From positions 1 to 53,475 of the forward strand of contig LADN01000010.1 of NCBI GenBank assembly GCA_000961585.1: a DNA stretch of 53,475 nt, read 5' to 3'. This stretch comes from Peptococcaceae bacterium BRH_c4a (GTDB taxonomy: Bacteria > Bacillota > Desulfotomaculia > Desulfotomaculales > Desulfocucumaceae). The notes beneath the pieces are model-generated. The model was not told the DNA's origin. It ran no database searches and was given only the letters and a program-made list of their open reading frames with translations. The position numbers were made by a program, and so were the translations under genes. Below, one piece after another: positions 2,435-53,475 of the stretch; within the stretch, counting starts at the first letter, position 1; each line of letters starts with the position of its first letter.

Positions 2435-2637
2435 CGCCCGTCAGGGCGTTTTTTTACCGTTAAGGAAAGCATATGCCATATTAAAGCATTAAAGCGCTAA
2501 AGCCTTATCGGCCCTAGTTCCTTCGGGGTCGCTTGAGGGTCACTTCTAAAGTATGCTGTCAACATTCTGGATTCTGGCTCCTGGCTCCTGGATTCCGCCG
2601 TCTGCAAGACGGCACCGCCGACAAGGCGGTTATTTTA
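2435..2637. repeat. Dispersed mosaic repeat, copy A (core deleted)
   Basis: The copy begins with the hairpin CGCCCGTCAGGGCG plus a T run (2435-2455), followed by the ATTAAAGCATTAAAGCGC tract, GGGTCGCTTGAGGGTC, the tract TCTGGCTCCTGGCTCCTGG, the hairpin GCCGTCTGCAAGACGGC (2597-2613) and the hairpin ACCGCCGACAAGGCGGT (2614-2630) with a T-rich tail. The large inverted arms and the core seen in the other copies are absent. The two end hairpins are of different types here, unlike copies C and E. It fills most of the gap before the ABC-F gene. Confidence 0.8.
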
Positions 2638-5732: not shown

Positions 5733-6180
5733 CCTAAAAGCGCTAAAGCCTTATCGGCCCTATTTCCTCCGGGGGTCGCTTGAGGGTCGCTGCATGGTCG
5801 CTAATGGGTAGGCGGAGCGATTTAAGTCCGGCCTGCATTACCTCCTGCTGCAACTGTCTCTAAACTCGGTCGCCAACGGAATGCCGACCATTTTGGAGGT
5901 GGGAGACCAGAGGTTAGAGGTTAGAAAACTTGTAGGAAATGACCTCAGAGCCATTTCTAGCTTAATCCGACTTCCAACTTCCAACATCTAACCTCCAAAT
6001 TCGTAGGCTCGGTCGTTAAGAGACAGTAGCAGCCTCCGGCACATTCCGCACGGACTTAAATCACTCCCCCTCACTGCATGTCGCTTGAGGGTCGCTTTTA
6101 AGGCAGCCTGTCACAATTCTGGCTCCTGGCTCCTGGATTCCGCCGTCTGCAAGACGGCAACGCCCGTCAGGGCGTTTTTT
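5733..6180. repeat. Dispersed mosaic repeat, copy B (inverted orientation, core type 2)
   Basis: The copy reads AGCGCTAAAGCC, GGGTCGCTTGAGGGTCGCTG, the arm GGCGGAGCGATTTAAGTCCG through CGGAATGCCGACC, then core type 2 with GGAGGTGGGAG, AGAGGTTAGAGGTTAG, CCGACTTCCAACTTCCAAC, the opposite arm, and the end hairpins GCCGTCTGCAAGACGGC (6142-6158) and CGCCCGTCAGGGCG plus T6 (6161-6180). It lies between two convergent genes. The last hairpin overlaps the 3' end of cvfB and supplies its stop codon. 5639-5732 holds a tandem AGCTATAAGCT stretch and otherwise nothing I recognise. Confidence 0.85.
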
Positions 6181-22400: not shown

Positions 22401-22485
22401 ATCTTCAAACCTCCTTTTATTTACTTGTCCGTTAATTATTATACCAGTTGATTATAAGCATTGGCAATTATAAACATATGCATGA

Positions 22486-22928
22486 AATAACCGCCTTGTC
22501 GGCGGTGCCGTCTTACAGACGGCGGAATTCAGAATCCAGAATCCAGAAAAAGCAAGCGTGACCCTCAAGCGACATGCAGTGAGGGGGAGGGGTTTTAGTC
22601 CAGGCGGATGTTCCGGAGGCTGTTATCTGGCTCTTGGCGACAGAGCCGTACGGACTGCCGAACCGGCTGCAGGACGCAGCCGGTAGCCGGAATCGACGTA
22701 TGGATGCGGCGTTGGAGGCGGTCGGCAGTCCGTTAGGCGACGAGCTTAGAGCCAGTTCAGCCGGAGGATAAGTAGATCGGACTCAAACCCCTCCACCGGC
22801 CACAGAGCGACCCCAGAAAAACTCTGGGCTTGCATAAAAATGCTTTGGTGCTTCAGTACTTCAGCGCTTTAATGCTTTAATGCGTCATATACTTTCCTAA
22901 ACGATAAAATAACCGCCTTGTCGGCGGT
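22486..22928. repeat. Dispersed mosaic repeat, copy C (core type 1)
   Basis: The copy is bracketed on both sides by AAATAACCGCCTTGTCGGCGG-type hairpins (22486-22506 and 22908-22928). Inside come the hairpin GCCGTCTTACAGACGGC, the CAGAATCCAGAATCCAG tract, AAGCGACATGCAGTGAGGGG, an arm ending CGGACTGCCGA, core type 1 (hairpin CCGGCTGCAGGACGCAGCCGG, then ATGCGGCGTTGGAGGCGG), the opposite arm TCGGCAGTCCG, AACTCTGGGCTTGC and the TGCTTTAATGCTTTAATGCG tail. It occupies most of the gap between the CGGC gene and pepF. Confidence 0.85.
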
Positions 22929-22935
22929 GCCAGCT

Positions 22936-23001
22936 AAGGAAAGGGGACATTCCTCCGACCCCCAGAGGCAGTCCTACTGGAGAGGTGTGTCCCCTTTCCT
23001 T
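22936..23001 (-). terminator. Long stem-loop at the pepF stop codon
   Basis: AAGGAAAGGGGACA (22936-22949) and TGTCCCCTTTCCTT (22988-23001) are exact 14-bp complements enclosing a 38-base loop with a further CCTC/GAGG pairing. The stem starts at the pepF stop codon. There is no T run, so it may stabilise the 3' end or stop transcription in a factor-dependent way. Confidence 0.6.
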
Positions 23002-48493: not shown

Positions 48494-50377
48494 CTATATA
48501 CCCAGGGCCTTTCTCTTGGATACAATATGGCTTTCAATTATTACGGCGGCTTTGACCGGATCCTGTTCCACCATAACCTTGCCTCCTGTAAGGGACTCCA
48601 CGTCTTCGGTAAGAATCCTGGTTACCAGGGGGCTGCCGGTTACCGGAGGCACAGGGCCAAGGTGTGTCAGCAGGCCGAAGGCCACTGCGAATATACCGTC
48701 AGCCACCGCCTTTTGCTCCAGGTACTCGGGGGCCGAGACAGCCACCGGAAGCTGGCTGGGGTCAACACCAAGAATATTGGCAATGGCGGTCACCACAACC
48801 CCGATGCGCCCGATATCCACGCAGGATCCGAAGTTCAGGCAGGGAGGTATCCCCAGTGCCCTGCAAACTCCCTTCAGACCTTCACCGGCCAGCTCAGCGG
48901 CCTCGGGGGTCATCAGGGATTCAATCTGGGCCGCGCTGCTCATGCACCCGGCGTTGATGACCAGTATATCCTTTTTGATAAGCTCCTTCATGAGGCTTAC
49001 GCCTATGCTGTCATGGCCGTTACGGTTGTTGGTGCAGCCCACCACGGCCACTATGCCCTTGATGGCCCCGCTCTTGACGGCATCCAGCAGCGGATCCAGG
49101 CTTCCGCCCAGGGCTCCCAGTATGGATTCCACTCCGAACCCTGTGATCACTTTGGATTTGTTTTTCGGAATGAAAATATTGTTGCCGCGCTTTTTATAGG
49201 CCTCAATAGCCATTTTCACCAGTTCCACAGCCTGTTCGGCCGCTTTTTCGGGCTGGTAGTCAACGCAGTCTTCCACTCCGGCCATACGCAGTATGCGGTC
49301 CACCGACACCAGTTTGGTGTGGAATTTGTCGGCCACTTCCTTCAGGCCGGGTATTGAGCAGTTCATGTCCATCATTACCAGGTCGATGGCGCCGGTGGCC
49401 ACGGTATACTCCTGGTGCAGCCAGTTCCCGGTCTGGGATTTAAAACCCTGGGCCGTGGTTGTTTGCCTTTGCATCAGCTCCTGCCCGGTGCACATGGAGC
49501 CGTGCACGTCGATTCCAGTGGCCCCGGCCTCTTTGGCCAGTTTCAGCATTTCTTCGGACTGAACAGCCTGCAGAACGGCAGTGGCCATCAGGGGTACGTG
49601 GCCGTGGGCCAGTATATTGACACTGCCGGGGTCAACGGCTCCCAGGTCGGCCTCGGTGGCGCTCAGCTGTGGTGAACCCAGCAGTATGTCCTGCATGGTG
49701 ACTGTGCCCACCAGTCCCATATAGCCGGTGGCTATGGAGAGCCGCAGGGCGGTTAACAAAAGGTCCACCGGGTCGGTGTTGATATTGCTCATGGTCTTGG
49801 TTAAAGCATCCCTTATTTCTGAGTGAACGCCTCCGGGAATAATGCCCAGCTTACCCCAGGCTTCCTTCCGGCTTTCCGGAGCGAAGGCCTGCAGCAGCGC
49901 CAGGGGCTCCCGACCGCTTTTACGCAGTTCGTTCAGCACGGCATCGGCCAGTTCACCCGCCAGTTGATTGGTTTCCTTGCTGTTATCCAGTCCCAGTGCC
50001 CCCGCAACATCTCTAAGTTTGGCCTCATCGCTAATTTTAAAAGGAGTTTTCCCCAAGGCGGTTGCCTTTATGGTTTCGGCCACCTCTTCCAGGTGGTGGG
50101 AGTAGGCCGCCGCCCCGTGGGCAGCCAGTCTGACCAGATTCCGGGCCACGATGGTATCGGCGGTGGCGCCGCAAATGGCCCTGGGGGCCTTGGGAGTGAT
50201 CCTGCAGGGACCGTGGCTGCACAGCTGGCAGCAAACACCCTGCATACCAAAACCGCACTGGGGCTGCTGGTCCTGATAGCGGTCAAAAATGGTGGTGATG
50301 TTCATTTCTTTGGTCCTGGCGTACATCTGGTTTGTGGACTGGTGACAGGAAACGTTGCAGCTGGAGCAGTTGGACAT
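48494..50377 (-). CDS. cooS: Anaerobic carbon monoxide dehydrogenase, catalytic subunit
   Basis: About 627 residues. D-cluster cysteines C41 and C49 (CGFGMQGVC) and B-cluster cysteines C50, C53, C58 and C69 are present. For the Ni-Fe C-cluster I see DVHGSMCTG (His), MMDMNCSIPG, VEDCVDYQ, VAVVGCTNNRNGHD, VINAGCMSSA and NFGSCVDIGR, so all ligand positions look occupied. It oxidises CO to CO2 in the cytosol. An extra CSSCNVSCH motif at residues 4-12 precedes the usual start. The ATG at 50377 is fixed by GGAGGG 8 bases upstream. No acsB is seen, and with cooF and the flavoprotein it points to NAD(P)H generation or redox balance. Confidence 0.95.
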   Translation of the reverse strand: MSNCSSCNVSCHQSTNQMYARTKEMNITTIFDRYQDQQPQCGFGMQGVCCQLCSHGPCRITPKAPRAICGATADTIVARNLVRLAAHGAAAYSHHLEEVAETIKATALGKTPFKISDEAKLRDVAGALGLDNSKETNQLAGELADAVLNELRKSGREPLALLQAFAPESRKEAWGKLGIIPGGVHSEIRDALTKTMSNINTDPVDLLLTALRLSIATGYMGLVGTVTMQDILLGSPQLSATEADLGAVDPGSVNILAHGHVPLMATAVLQAVQSEEMLKLAKEAGATGIDVHGSMCTGQELMQRQTTTAQGFKSQTGNWLHQEYTVATGAIDLVMMDMNCSIPGLKEVADKFHTKLVSVDRILRMAGVEDCVDYQPEKAAEQAVELVKMAIEAYKKRGNNIFIPKNKSKVITGFGVESILGALGGSLDPLLDAVKSGAIKGIVAVVGCTNNRNGHDSIGVSLMKELIKKDILVINAGCMSSAAQIESLMTPEAAELAGEGLKGVCRALGIPPCLNFGSCVDIGRIGVVVTAIANILGVDPSQLPVAVSAPEYLEQKAVADGIFAVAFGLLTHLGPVPPVTGSPLVTRILTEDVESLTGGKVMVEQDPVKAAVIIESHIVSKRKALGI

Positions 50378-50465
50378 TTTATAGACCCTCCTCAATTTTT
50401 ATTTGGACATTCTCAGTTTATCGGAATTGCAATCCCCGGGGTTATGAGGCTCACAACAGAAACTA

Positions 50466-50481: not shown

Positions 50482-50490
50482 GTGGAAAAT

Positions 50491-51004
50491 AAAAAAACGC
50501 CCTGACGGGCGTTGCCGTCTTGCAGACGGCGGAATCCAGGAGCCAGGAGCCAGAATCCAGAATGGTGACAGGCTGCCTTAAAAGCGACCCCACAGCGACA
50601 TGCAGTGAGGGGGAGGGGTTTGAGGACGTGCGGAATGTACCGGAGGATGCTACTGTCTCTTAGCGACCGAGCCTACGAATTTGGAGGTTAGATGTTGGAA
50701 GTCGGAAGTCGGATTAAGCTAGAAATGGCTCTGAGGTCATTTCCTACAAGTTTTCTAACCTCTAACCTCTCGCCTCCCACCTCCCAAATGGTCGGCAGTC
50801 CGTTGGCGACCGAGCATAGAGACAGTTGCAGCAGGAGGTTATGCAGGCCGGACTTAAATCGCTCCGCCTACCCATTAGCGACCATGTAGCGACCCTCGAG
50901 CGACCCCGGAAAAACTCTGGGCTGAATAAAAATTCTTTGGCGCTTTAGTGTTTTAATGCGTCCTATGCTTTCCTTGGTGAAAAAAAACAGTCCTACGGGC
51001 TGTT
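50491..51004. repeat. Dispersed mosaic repeat, copy D (core type 2)
   Basis: The copy begins AAAAAAACGCCCTGACGGGC, the hairpin GCCGTCTTGCAGACGGC and CCAGGAGCCAGGAGCCAG, then GGTGACAGGCTGCCTTAAAA, AGCGACC units, and the arm GTACCGGAGGATGCTACTG through CGACCGAGCC. Core type 2 (GGAGGTTAGATGTTGGAAG, TCTAACCTCTAACCTC) is followed by the opposite arm TTGGCGACCGAG to GGACTTAAATCGCTCCGCC and the tail. It ends with the hairpin CAGTCCTACGGGCTG (50988-51002) and fills the gap between the uracil-DNA glycosylase gene and the cooS promoter. Confidence 0.85.
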
Positions 51005-52139: not shown

Positions 52140-52143
52140 ATTT

Positions 52144-52243
52144 GTAGTTCAAGGGGGAGTAGCTTTTACCGGCAGGTCAACAATCGGCCCAAGGGGTCTG
52201 GCCTGCGGGGACGCATACGTTTAGCAAGACCTTTGTGCCAGGT
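52144..52243 (+). promoter_or_regulatory. yybP-ykoY manganese riboswitch
   Basis: The conserved AAGGGGGAGTAGCTTTTACC (52151-52170), the central GGTCAACAAT and GGCCTGCGGGGACGC, and the closing TTAGCAAGACCTTTG are the known marks of the yybP-ykoY aptamer, which binds Mn2+. The 3' strand AAGACCTTTG is shared with a terminator stem, so the aptamer and terminator can exclude each other. Mn2+ binding should allow read-through into the TerC gene. Confidence 0.88.
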
Positions 52244-52269
52244 TTTTTTCTGGTACAAAGGTCTTTTTT
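52226..52269 (+). terminator. Riboswitch expression-platform terminator
   Basis: AAGACCTTTGTGCCA (52226-52240) pairs with TGGTACAAAGGTCTT (52251-52265) with one G-U pair, followed by TTTT. The first strand overlaps the 3' end of the manganese aptamer. Confidence 0.85.
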
Positions 52270-52304
52270 GTTGGGTATAATAATTTAAAAAAAGGGGTGC
52301 TGAA

Positions 52305-52979
52305 TTGGACTGGGAAATTATTGGCGGGGTAATCAACATCATAATCATTAACCTGGTGTTAAGCGGGGACAATGCGGTGGTCATAGCCATGGCCTGCATT
52401 GGACTCCCCGAAGAGTACCGGAAAAAAGCGGTGTTTTGGGGAGCCACCCTGGCCGTTGTGCTGCGTATCGCACTGACATTTGTGGCCGCTCTTCTATTAA
52501 AAATTCCCTTTGTGCAGTTGGCGGGCGGGCTGCTGCTGGCCTGGATTGCCATAAAGCTCCTTTTCCCGCAGAAGGATCATTGTGCGGACCAGGAAGCCTG
52601 CGAGAGTGATTTTAAAAAGGCCCTTCTCACCATACTGTGGGCTGACCTGATTATGAGCCTGGATAATGTTCTGGCGGTGGCCGGGGCATCCGGCGGAAAC
52701 CTTTACTTACTGGTATTCGGTATCGCCTTAAGTATACCAATAGTCCTGGCAGGCAGCACGCTTTTGACAACACTTATGCAAAAATATCAGTGGCTGGTAT
52801 ATGTGGGGGCCGGTGTACTGGCCTGGACGGCCGGTGAAATGATAGTGGCGGACAAGATAATTTCACCTTATTTACACAGAGTAACCTTCGGGGAATTGGC
52901 CGTACCTGTTGCCCTTACGGTCATAGTGATACTTATAGGCAGACGGGTTCGCAGTGGCGTAAAAGCGGTATCGCAGTGA
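52305..52979 (+). CDS. TerC-family (YkoY/YjbE-like) membrane metal transporter
   Basis: The protein has 224 residues with about seven membrane segments. The family motifs NLVLSGDNAVVIAMAC (about 17-32) and ADLIMSLDNVLAVAGAS (about 117-133) hold the conserved Asp-Asn pairs. A cytosolic loop has the metal-binding-like KDHCADQEACESD. The start is a TTG with AGGGG 8 bases upstream. Control by the yybP-ykoY riboswitch supports export of manganese or loading of secreted proteins with it. Confidence 0.9.
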   Translation: MDWEIIGGVINIIIINLVLSGDNAVVIAMACIGLPEEYRKKAVFWGATLAVVLRIALTFVAALLLKIPFVQLAGGLLLAWIAIKLLFPQKDHCADQEACESDFKKALLTILWADLIMSLDNVLAVAGASGGNLYLLVFGIALSIPIVLAGSTLLTTLMQKYQWLVYVGAGVLAWTAGEMIVADKIISPYLHRVTFGELAVPVALTVIVILIGRRVRSGVKAVSQ

Positions 52980-52992
52980 CGGAGATGTATAT

Positions 52993-53475
52993 AAAAAAAC
53001 GCCCTGACGGGCGCTTGGGAATCCAGAATCCAGAAGCCAGAATCCAGAATGGTGACAGGCTGCCTTAAAAGCGACCCTCAAGCGACCCCACAGCGACATG
53101 CAGTGAGGGGGAGTGATTTAAGTCCGTGCGGAATGTACCGGAGGCTGCTACTGTCTCTTAACGACCGAGCCTACGGAATGCCGAGCCGGCTGCAGGACGC
53201 AGCCGGAAGCCGGAATCGACGCAAGGATGCGGCGTTGGAGGCGGTCGGCATTCCGTTGGCGACCGAGTTTAGAGACAGTTGCAGCAGGAGGTAATGCAGG
53301 CCGGACTTAAATCGCTCCGCCTACCCATTAGCGACAATGCAGCGACCCTCAAGTGACCCCGGAGCGACCCCGGAAAAACTCTGGGCTTGCATAAAAATGC
53401 TTTGGTGCTTCAGTGCTTTAATGCTTTAATGCGGCATATACTTTCCTTAACGATAAAAAAACGCCCTGACGGGCG
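52993..53475. repeat. Dispersed mosaic repeat, copy E (core type 1)
   Basis: The copy is bracketed by identical AAAAAAACGCCCTGACGGGC(G) hairpins (52993-53013 and 53455-53475, the window edge). In between are CCAGAATCCAGAAGCCAG, AGCGACC units, the left arm GGAGTGATTTAAGTCCG to CGGAATGCCGA (53109-53184), core type 1 (GCCGGCTGCAGGACGCAGCC and ATGCGGCGTTGGAGGCGG), and the right arm GGCATTCCGTTGGCGACC to TTAAATCGCTCCGCC (53247-53321). AGCGACC units, ACTCTGGGCTTGC and the TGCTTTAATGCTTTAATGCG tail follow. It lies just after the TerC gene. Confidence 0.85.

Follow-up and report, generated by a model that had tools for sequence, protein, structure and literature searches.

Two cores within one dispersed repeat

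How do copies of a single dispersed repeat come to carry two different sequences at their centre? We analysed a 53,475-nt stretch of DNA (the window) from contig LADN01000010.1 of Peptococcaceae bacterium BRH_c4a, for which a preliminary description had reported two unrelated cores inside the same conserved arms, and had suggested cassette-like exchange through recombination or a site-specific process acting on the core. The region of interest forms the middle of an intergenic repeat of ~480 bp that is dispersed through the genome. At the left end of the element, an A-run and a GC-rich hairpin are followed by another small hairpin and by repeated heptads (CCAGAAT/CCAGGAG); the core then lies between two long arms that are complementary to each other, and a tail terminates in CTTTCCTTAACGA. 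Copy A (2435-2637, minus strand) consists of the element ends only, without arms or core. Copies B (5768-6180, minus strand) and D (50489-50983, plus strand) carry core 2, while copies C (22485-22922, plus strand; arm subfamily B) and E (52991-53475, plus strand; extending to the contig end) carry core 1, as originally assigned for all four.

Copy D illustrates the layout from its terminator-like left end through heptads, arms and core to the right tail. Its left-end hairpins (50490-50529, plus strand; an A-run and CGCCCTGACGGGCG, then GCCGTCTTGCAGACGGC) would read as an intrinsic terminator on the minus strand. The left arm (50582-50677, plus strand) is followed by a type 2 core (50678-50789, plus strand), in which a heptad-repeat hairpin (AATTTGGAGG...CCTCCCAAAT) stands in place of both GGA hairpins of core 1, and by the right arm (50790-50910, plus strand), which starts with GGTCGGCAGTCC, the 3' strand of the core-1 stem, left without its partner. 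The flanks had been described as the same; the arms are indeed common to the copies, but their sequences are not identical, with GGTCGGCATTCC in copy E in place of GGTCGGCAGTCC in copy D, and CGACAGAGCCGTA in copy C in place of CGACCGAGCCTA in copy D.

Several neighbouring features deserve mention in their own right. A gene for the catalytic subunit of anaerobic CO dehydrogenase (48494-50395, minus strand) adjoins copy D, and is followed by an iron-sulfur protein gene. A second dispersed palindrome, AGGAAAGGGGACACACCT...GGGGACATTCCT, adjoins copy C (22930-23000); in two other genomes (G001 and G002) the same palindrome interrupts the right arm of TwoAYGGAY (loci L250, L251, L256 and L261). A gene for a membrane protein of the YjbE/YkoY type (NCBIfam model R_switched_YjbE) occupies 52305-52979. 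The segment upstream of it (52142-52305, plus strand) scores 11.1 bits for the Mn2+ riboswitch against a cut-off of 45, a very weak match; it has a GGGGGAGTAGC start as well as a strong terminator hairpin, and is possibly a diverged yybP-ykoY riboswitch.

Genome-wide census of the repeat

The preliminary description had called for all genomic copies to be collected and their core boundaries mapped, and we did so using 127 regions (405 kb) of the genome, a 98-contig draft in which many contigs end in the element. A 28-nt right-arm pattern had 120 matches in the genome at ≤3 mismatches and none for the reversed control, placing the repeat far above chance. The assembly contains 152 complete copies; core 1 is present in 112 of them and core 2 in the remaining 40, although some copies at contig ends may represent one physical copy counted twice; 89 of the 152 lie well inside contigs, and the other 63 lie within ~800 nt of a contig end. 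Core 1 is exactly 60 nt long in 109 of 112 copies. Core 2 is 105 nt long in 31 of 40, and in most of the remainder the difference is one of heptad units or a 16-nt extension on the left. We sought a third core type among the 152 complete copies and found none. The core has a single orientation relative to the arms in every copy.

Core 1 is the TwoAYGGAY RNA

Core 1 is the Rfam family TwoAYGGAY (RF01731), a three-way junction with two GGA-loop hairpins. The family was described in 2010 (Weinberg et al., 2010; PMC2864571), and in the literature we searched we found no tested function for it since that description. Copy E matches the covariance model over its full length (53136-53293, plus strand; 47.1 bits, cut-off 43); the match in copy C (22611-22769, plus strand) scores 41.0 bits, under the cut-off. 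Across the genome there are 115 matches, of which 98 exceed the cut-off. The predicted fold of copy E (z-score -11.1) is a long stem bearing two hairpins, with loops AGGAC (hairpin 1; 53186-53206, plus strand) and AAGGAT (hairpin 2; 53217-53236, plus strand). The AGGAC loop is kept in 112 of 112 type 1 cores, and all of these have two GGA-loop hairpins except one 30-nt core with a single hairpin. Both GGA triplets are invariant in an alignment of genomes G000, G002, G005 and G007, and two-sided changes occur in 10 of 40 predicted pairs, counting stem and hairpins together (11 sequences, four genomes); this compensatory change supports the basal stem. Within the genome, arm columns 68 and 200, which form a base pair, covary.

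Type 2 copies are without the two GGA-loop hairpins, their heptads containing other GGA triplets, and do not match RF01731: of the 40 DNA matches listed for copy D, not one overlaps an RF01731 match. Near-exact core-1 sequence is also found in metagenome-assembled genomes of Peptococcaceae bacterium BICA1-7, Gracilibacter sp. BRH_c7a and Actinobacteria FK_Sedi_B_Bin.80 (a bin label). We rejected a phage origin of this sequence, having found no exact matches in viral contigs.

Core 2 most likely arose inside a core-1 hairpin

The junctions of core 2 bear on its origin. In 36 of the 40 complete type 2 copies, the left junction joins TACG to AATTTGG. The other four keep core-1 sequence halfway into the 5' strand of hairpin 1, where GGA(A/C)TGCCGAGCCGGCT meets AATTTGG (equivalently, GAGCCGGCT meets AATTTGGAGG). 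The same intermediate junction, but in subfamily-B sequence (GAACCGGCT joined to AATTTGG), recurs at the end of contig C24 in a truncated copy. Right arms of complete type 2 copies start with GGTCGGCATTCC or a close variant, which is the 3' strand of the core-1 stem; its 5' partner is missing in the 36 copies with the TACG junction. The view of the two cores as unrelated, equal alternatives does not survive these intermediates and core-1 remnants. Cores that grade into one another had been expected under simple divergence; such grading is seen in part, through the intermediate copies. To judge from these junctions, core 2 most likely has a single origin in this genome: an insertion or replacement inside hairpin 1 of core 1, after which 16 nt were deleted. 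Among the genome copies, we found none that combined the insert with the rest of core 1 intact, so that insertion and loss are inseparable in time. Separately, we note a mosaic element at C25:7158 (L101) that combines a subfamily-B left arm, an intermediate core and a subfamily-A right arm.

Purine heptads make up the core-2 insert, a long inverted repeat with stand-alone relatives in contig C48 of this genome and in genomes G028 and G014. In two related genomes, heptad-repeat hairpins of this family, ~100 bp long, lie exactly between adjacent tRNA genes (L231 1425-1683 in G001:C106; L232 1415-1690 in G003:C51). A relative from another genus (G005) has similar inserts within TwoAYGGAY arms, with a different left junction (CCGCAGGAC joined to ATTTTGGA); given this difference, the replacement probably happened at least twice. 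A literature search on heptad repeats in related bacteria and in rnpB returned nothing directly relevant.

Cores and arms are mixed among copies

If two old subfamilies with different cores had been amplified separately, sharing arms by descent only, then arm sequence should follow the core. Arm subfamilies do exist, but their division does not track the core: subfamily A comprises 78 copies with core 1 and 40 with core 2, and subfamily B comprises 34 copies with core 1. Three identical arm haplotypes (215 columns), all within subfamily A, carry both cores. On the arm tree, core type changes 28 times by parsimony, as compared with a mean of 33.4 when shuffled (minimum 26 of 200). Moreover, the core of a copy cannot be predicted from its nearest neighbours in arm sequence (P = 0.15-0.69; 66 interior copies), and r2 between the core and every tested arm site is ≤0.06. 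Chimeric assembly aside, separate amplification is already contradicted by the arm data, and we regard it as extremely unlikely. The earlier proposal of cassette-like exchange holds to the extent that different cores do occur in interchangeable arms.

A site-specific process acting on the core is not supported. A site-specific recombination system that swaps cores between constant arms would fit the sharp junctions common to 36 of 40 type 2 copies and the lack of linkage between core and arms. Exchange is not confined to the core with the arms kept linked, however; r2 between arm sites is mostly <0.1 beyond ~20 nt when a diverged subgroup of six copies is left out, and with that subgroup removed, sites on the same side are as unlinked as sites across the core. 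Strong left-right arm linkage across the core, which we considered and rejected, was owed to these six copies and was gone once they were omitted; the clearest long-range exception is the base-paired columns 68 and 200. Since arm sites are also mutually unlinked, the core is one marker among many under general recombination. In addition, the two left junctions are accounted for by a deletion, all 152 cores share one orientation, and core-1 remnants persist in core-2 copies, making a site-specific system very unlikely. The mixing could also be an artefact of short-read assembly of near-identical repeats, and the division into 98 contigs, many ending in the element, with 63 of 152 copies near a contig end, speaks for such an artefact. 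Nonetheless, interior copies alone give the same linkage pattern as the full set, and copy D, which lies clear of the contig ends, carries substitutions of its own in arms and core alike; we consider an artefact unlikely. In G017, a genome of the same order with 20 contigs and 50 copies of the RNA, there is no linkage at any distance, which bears neither way on conversion.

We therefore favour general gene conversion among copies, which would explain the mixing with no need for recombination specific to the core. Overall, a high-copy TwoAYGGAY repeat whose tip was replaced by a heptad insert, with gene conversion mixing the two versions, is probably the right account, with the caveat that chimeric repeat assembly in the draft could mimic loss of linkage, the data being assembled contigs. 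We propose that a heptad-repeat hairpin from another repeat family entered the 5' strand of hairpin 1, once in this lineage, and that both GGA hairpins were lost. A 16-nt deletion would later have taken the remaining 5' strand of the core-1 stem, and homologous gene conversion among near-identical copies may then have spread the core-2 derivative and mixed it with arm variants, the elements presumably being tolerated mainly at the 3' ends of genes.

Genomic position

Gene pairs around 88 copies are convergent in 28 cases, co-directional in 52 and divergent in 8, based on crude ORF calling (divergent versus convergent, P = 0.001). Co-directional copies are split 27:25 between the strands, and we rejected a strand-tied role in cis-regulation or as a 3'-UTR. 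The element keeps out of promoter regions, and looks like a repeat that is tolerated at gene ends rather than a strand-specific cis-regulator. No target-site duplication was evident by eye at the element ends, which are modular. We also set aside mobility via a RAYT-like transposase, matches to Y1 transposases being limited to two partial ones.

A possible connection to CsrA

GGA in a hairpin loop is the pattern recognised by CsrA. Rfam clan CL00106 lists both TwoAYGGAY and CsrB, and CsrA binding by TwoAYGGAY was proposed in a published motif analysis (PMC4333381). The genome has one csrA gene (PF02599; C87:696-851). Among 85 genomes of the class, csrA is present in 14 of the 17 with the RNA and in 38 of the 68 without it (P = 0.055, ignoring phylogeny), a co-occurrence that is only suggestive; one genome (G047) has six copies of the RNA, and csrA was not found there. 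Loss of the two hairpins would be expected to remove CsrA binding from type 2 copies. More speculatively, the repeats might form a distributed CsrA sponge, of at most ~100 transcribed loci with two putative CsrA sites each; heptad hairpins would be repeated invaders of structured-RNA genes, namely TwoAYGGAY in two genera and tRNA clusters in two further ones, and would inactivate copies, with gene conversion setting the number of active sites across the genome. We consider this scenario doubtful.

Comparison with known systems

The ~100 natural copies of TwoAYGGAY, together with ~40 matched derivatives missing precisely the two GGA hairpins, provide a ready comparison set for CsrA binding and dosage. 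Furthermore, a structured RNA family that acts as a high-copy repeat, recombining among copies and hosting nested repeats, has consequences for counting and aligning such families.

A structured RNA that harbours heptad-repeat sequence has a parallel in cyanobacteria, where STRR heptad short tandem repeats occur inside the structured RNA gene rnpB; the phylum and the host RNA are different there, and in the present case two hairpins were replaced by the insert. REPINs and other miniature dispersed palindromic elements (PMC3116915) are likewise non-coding, high-copy, intergenic and built on inverted repeats, but the element described here is far larger and has a conserved RNA fold, and a partner transposase was not identified, beyond the two partial Y1 matches. 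The CsrA-sequestering RNAs (CsrB/RsmB and others) are comparable in that Rfam groups CsrB with TwoAYGGAY, and csrA is in the genome; the difference is that putative sites are arranged two per copy at many loci, rather than many per RNA. Core 1 and the arms match TwoAYGGAY (RF01731; PMC2864571) end to end, copy E scores above the gathering threshold, and two GGA-loop hairpins sit on a long basal stem. Here, however, the RNA is the centre of a dispersed repeat present in ~100 copies, and its two hairpins are gone from a quarter of the repeats.
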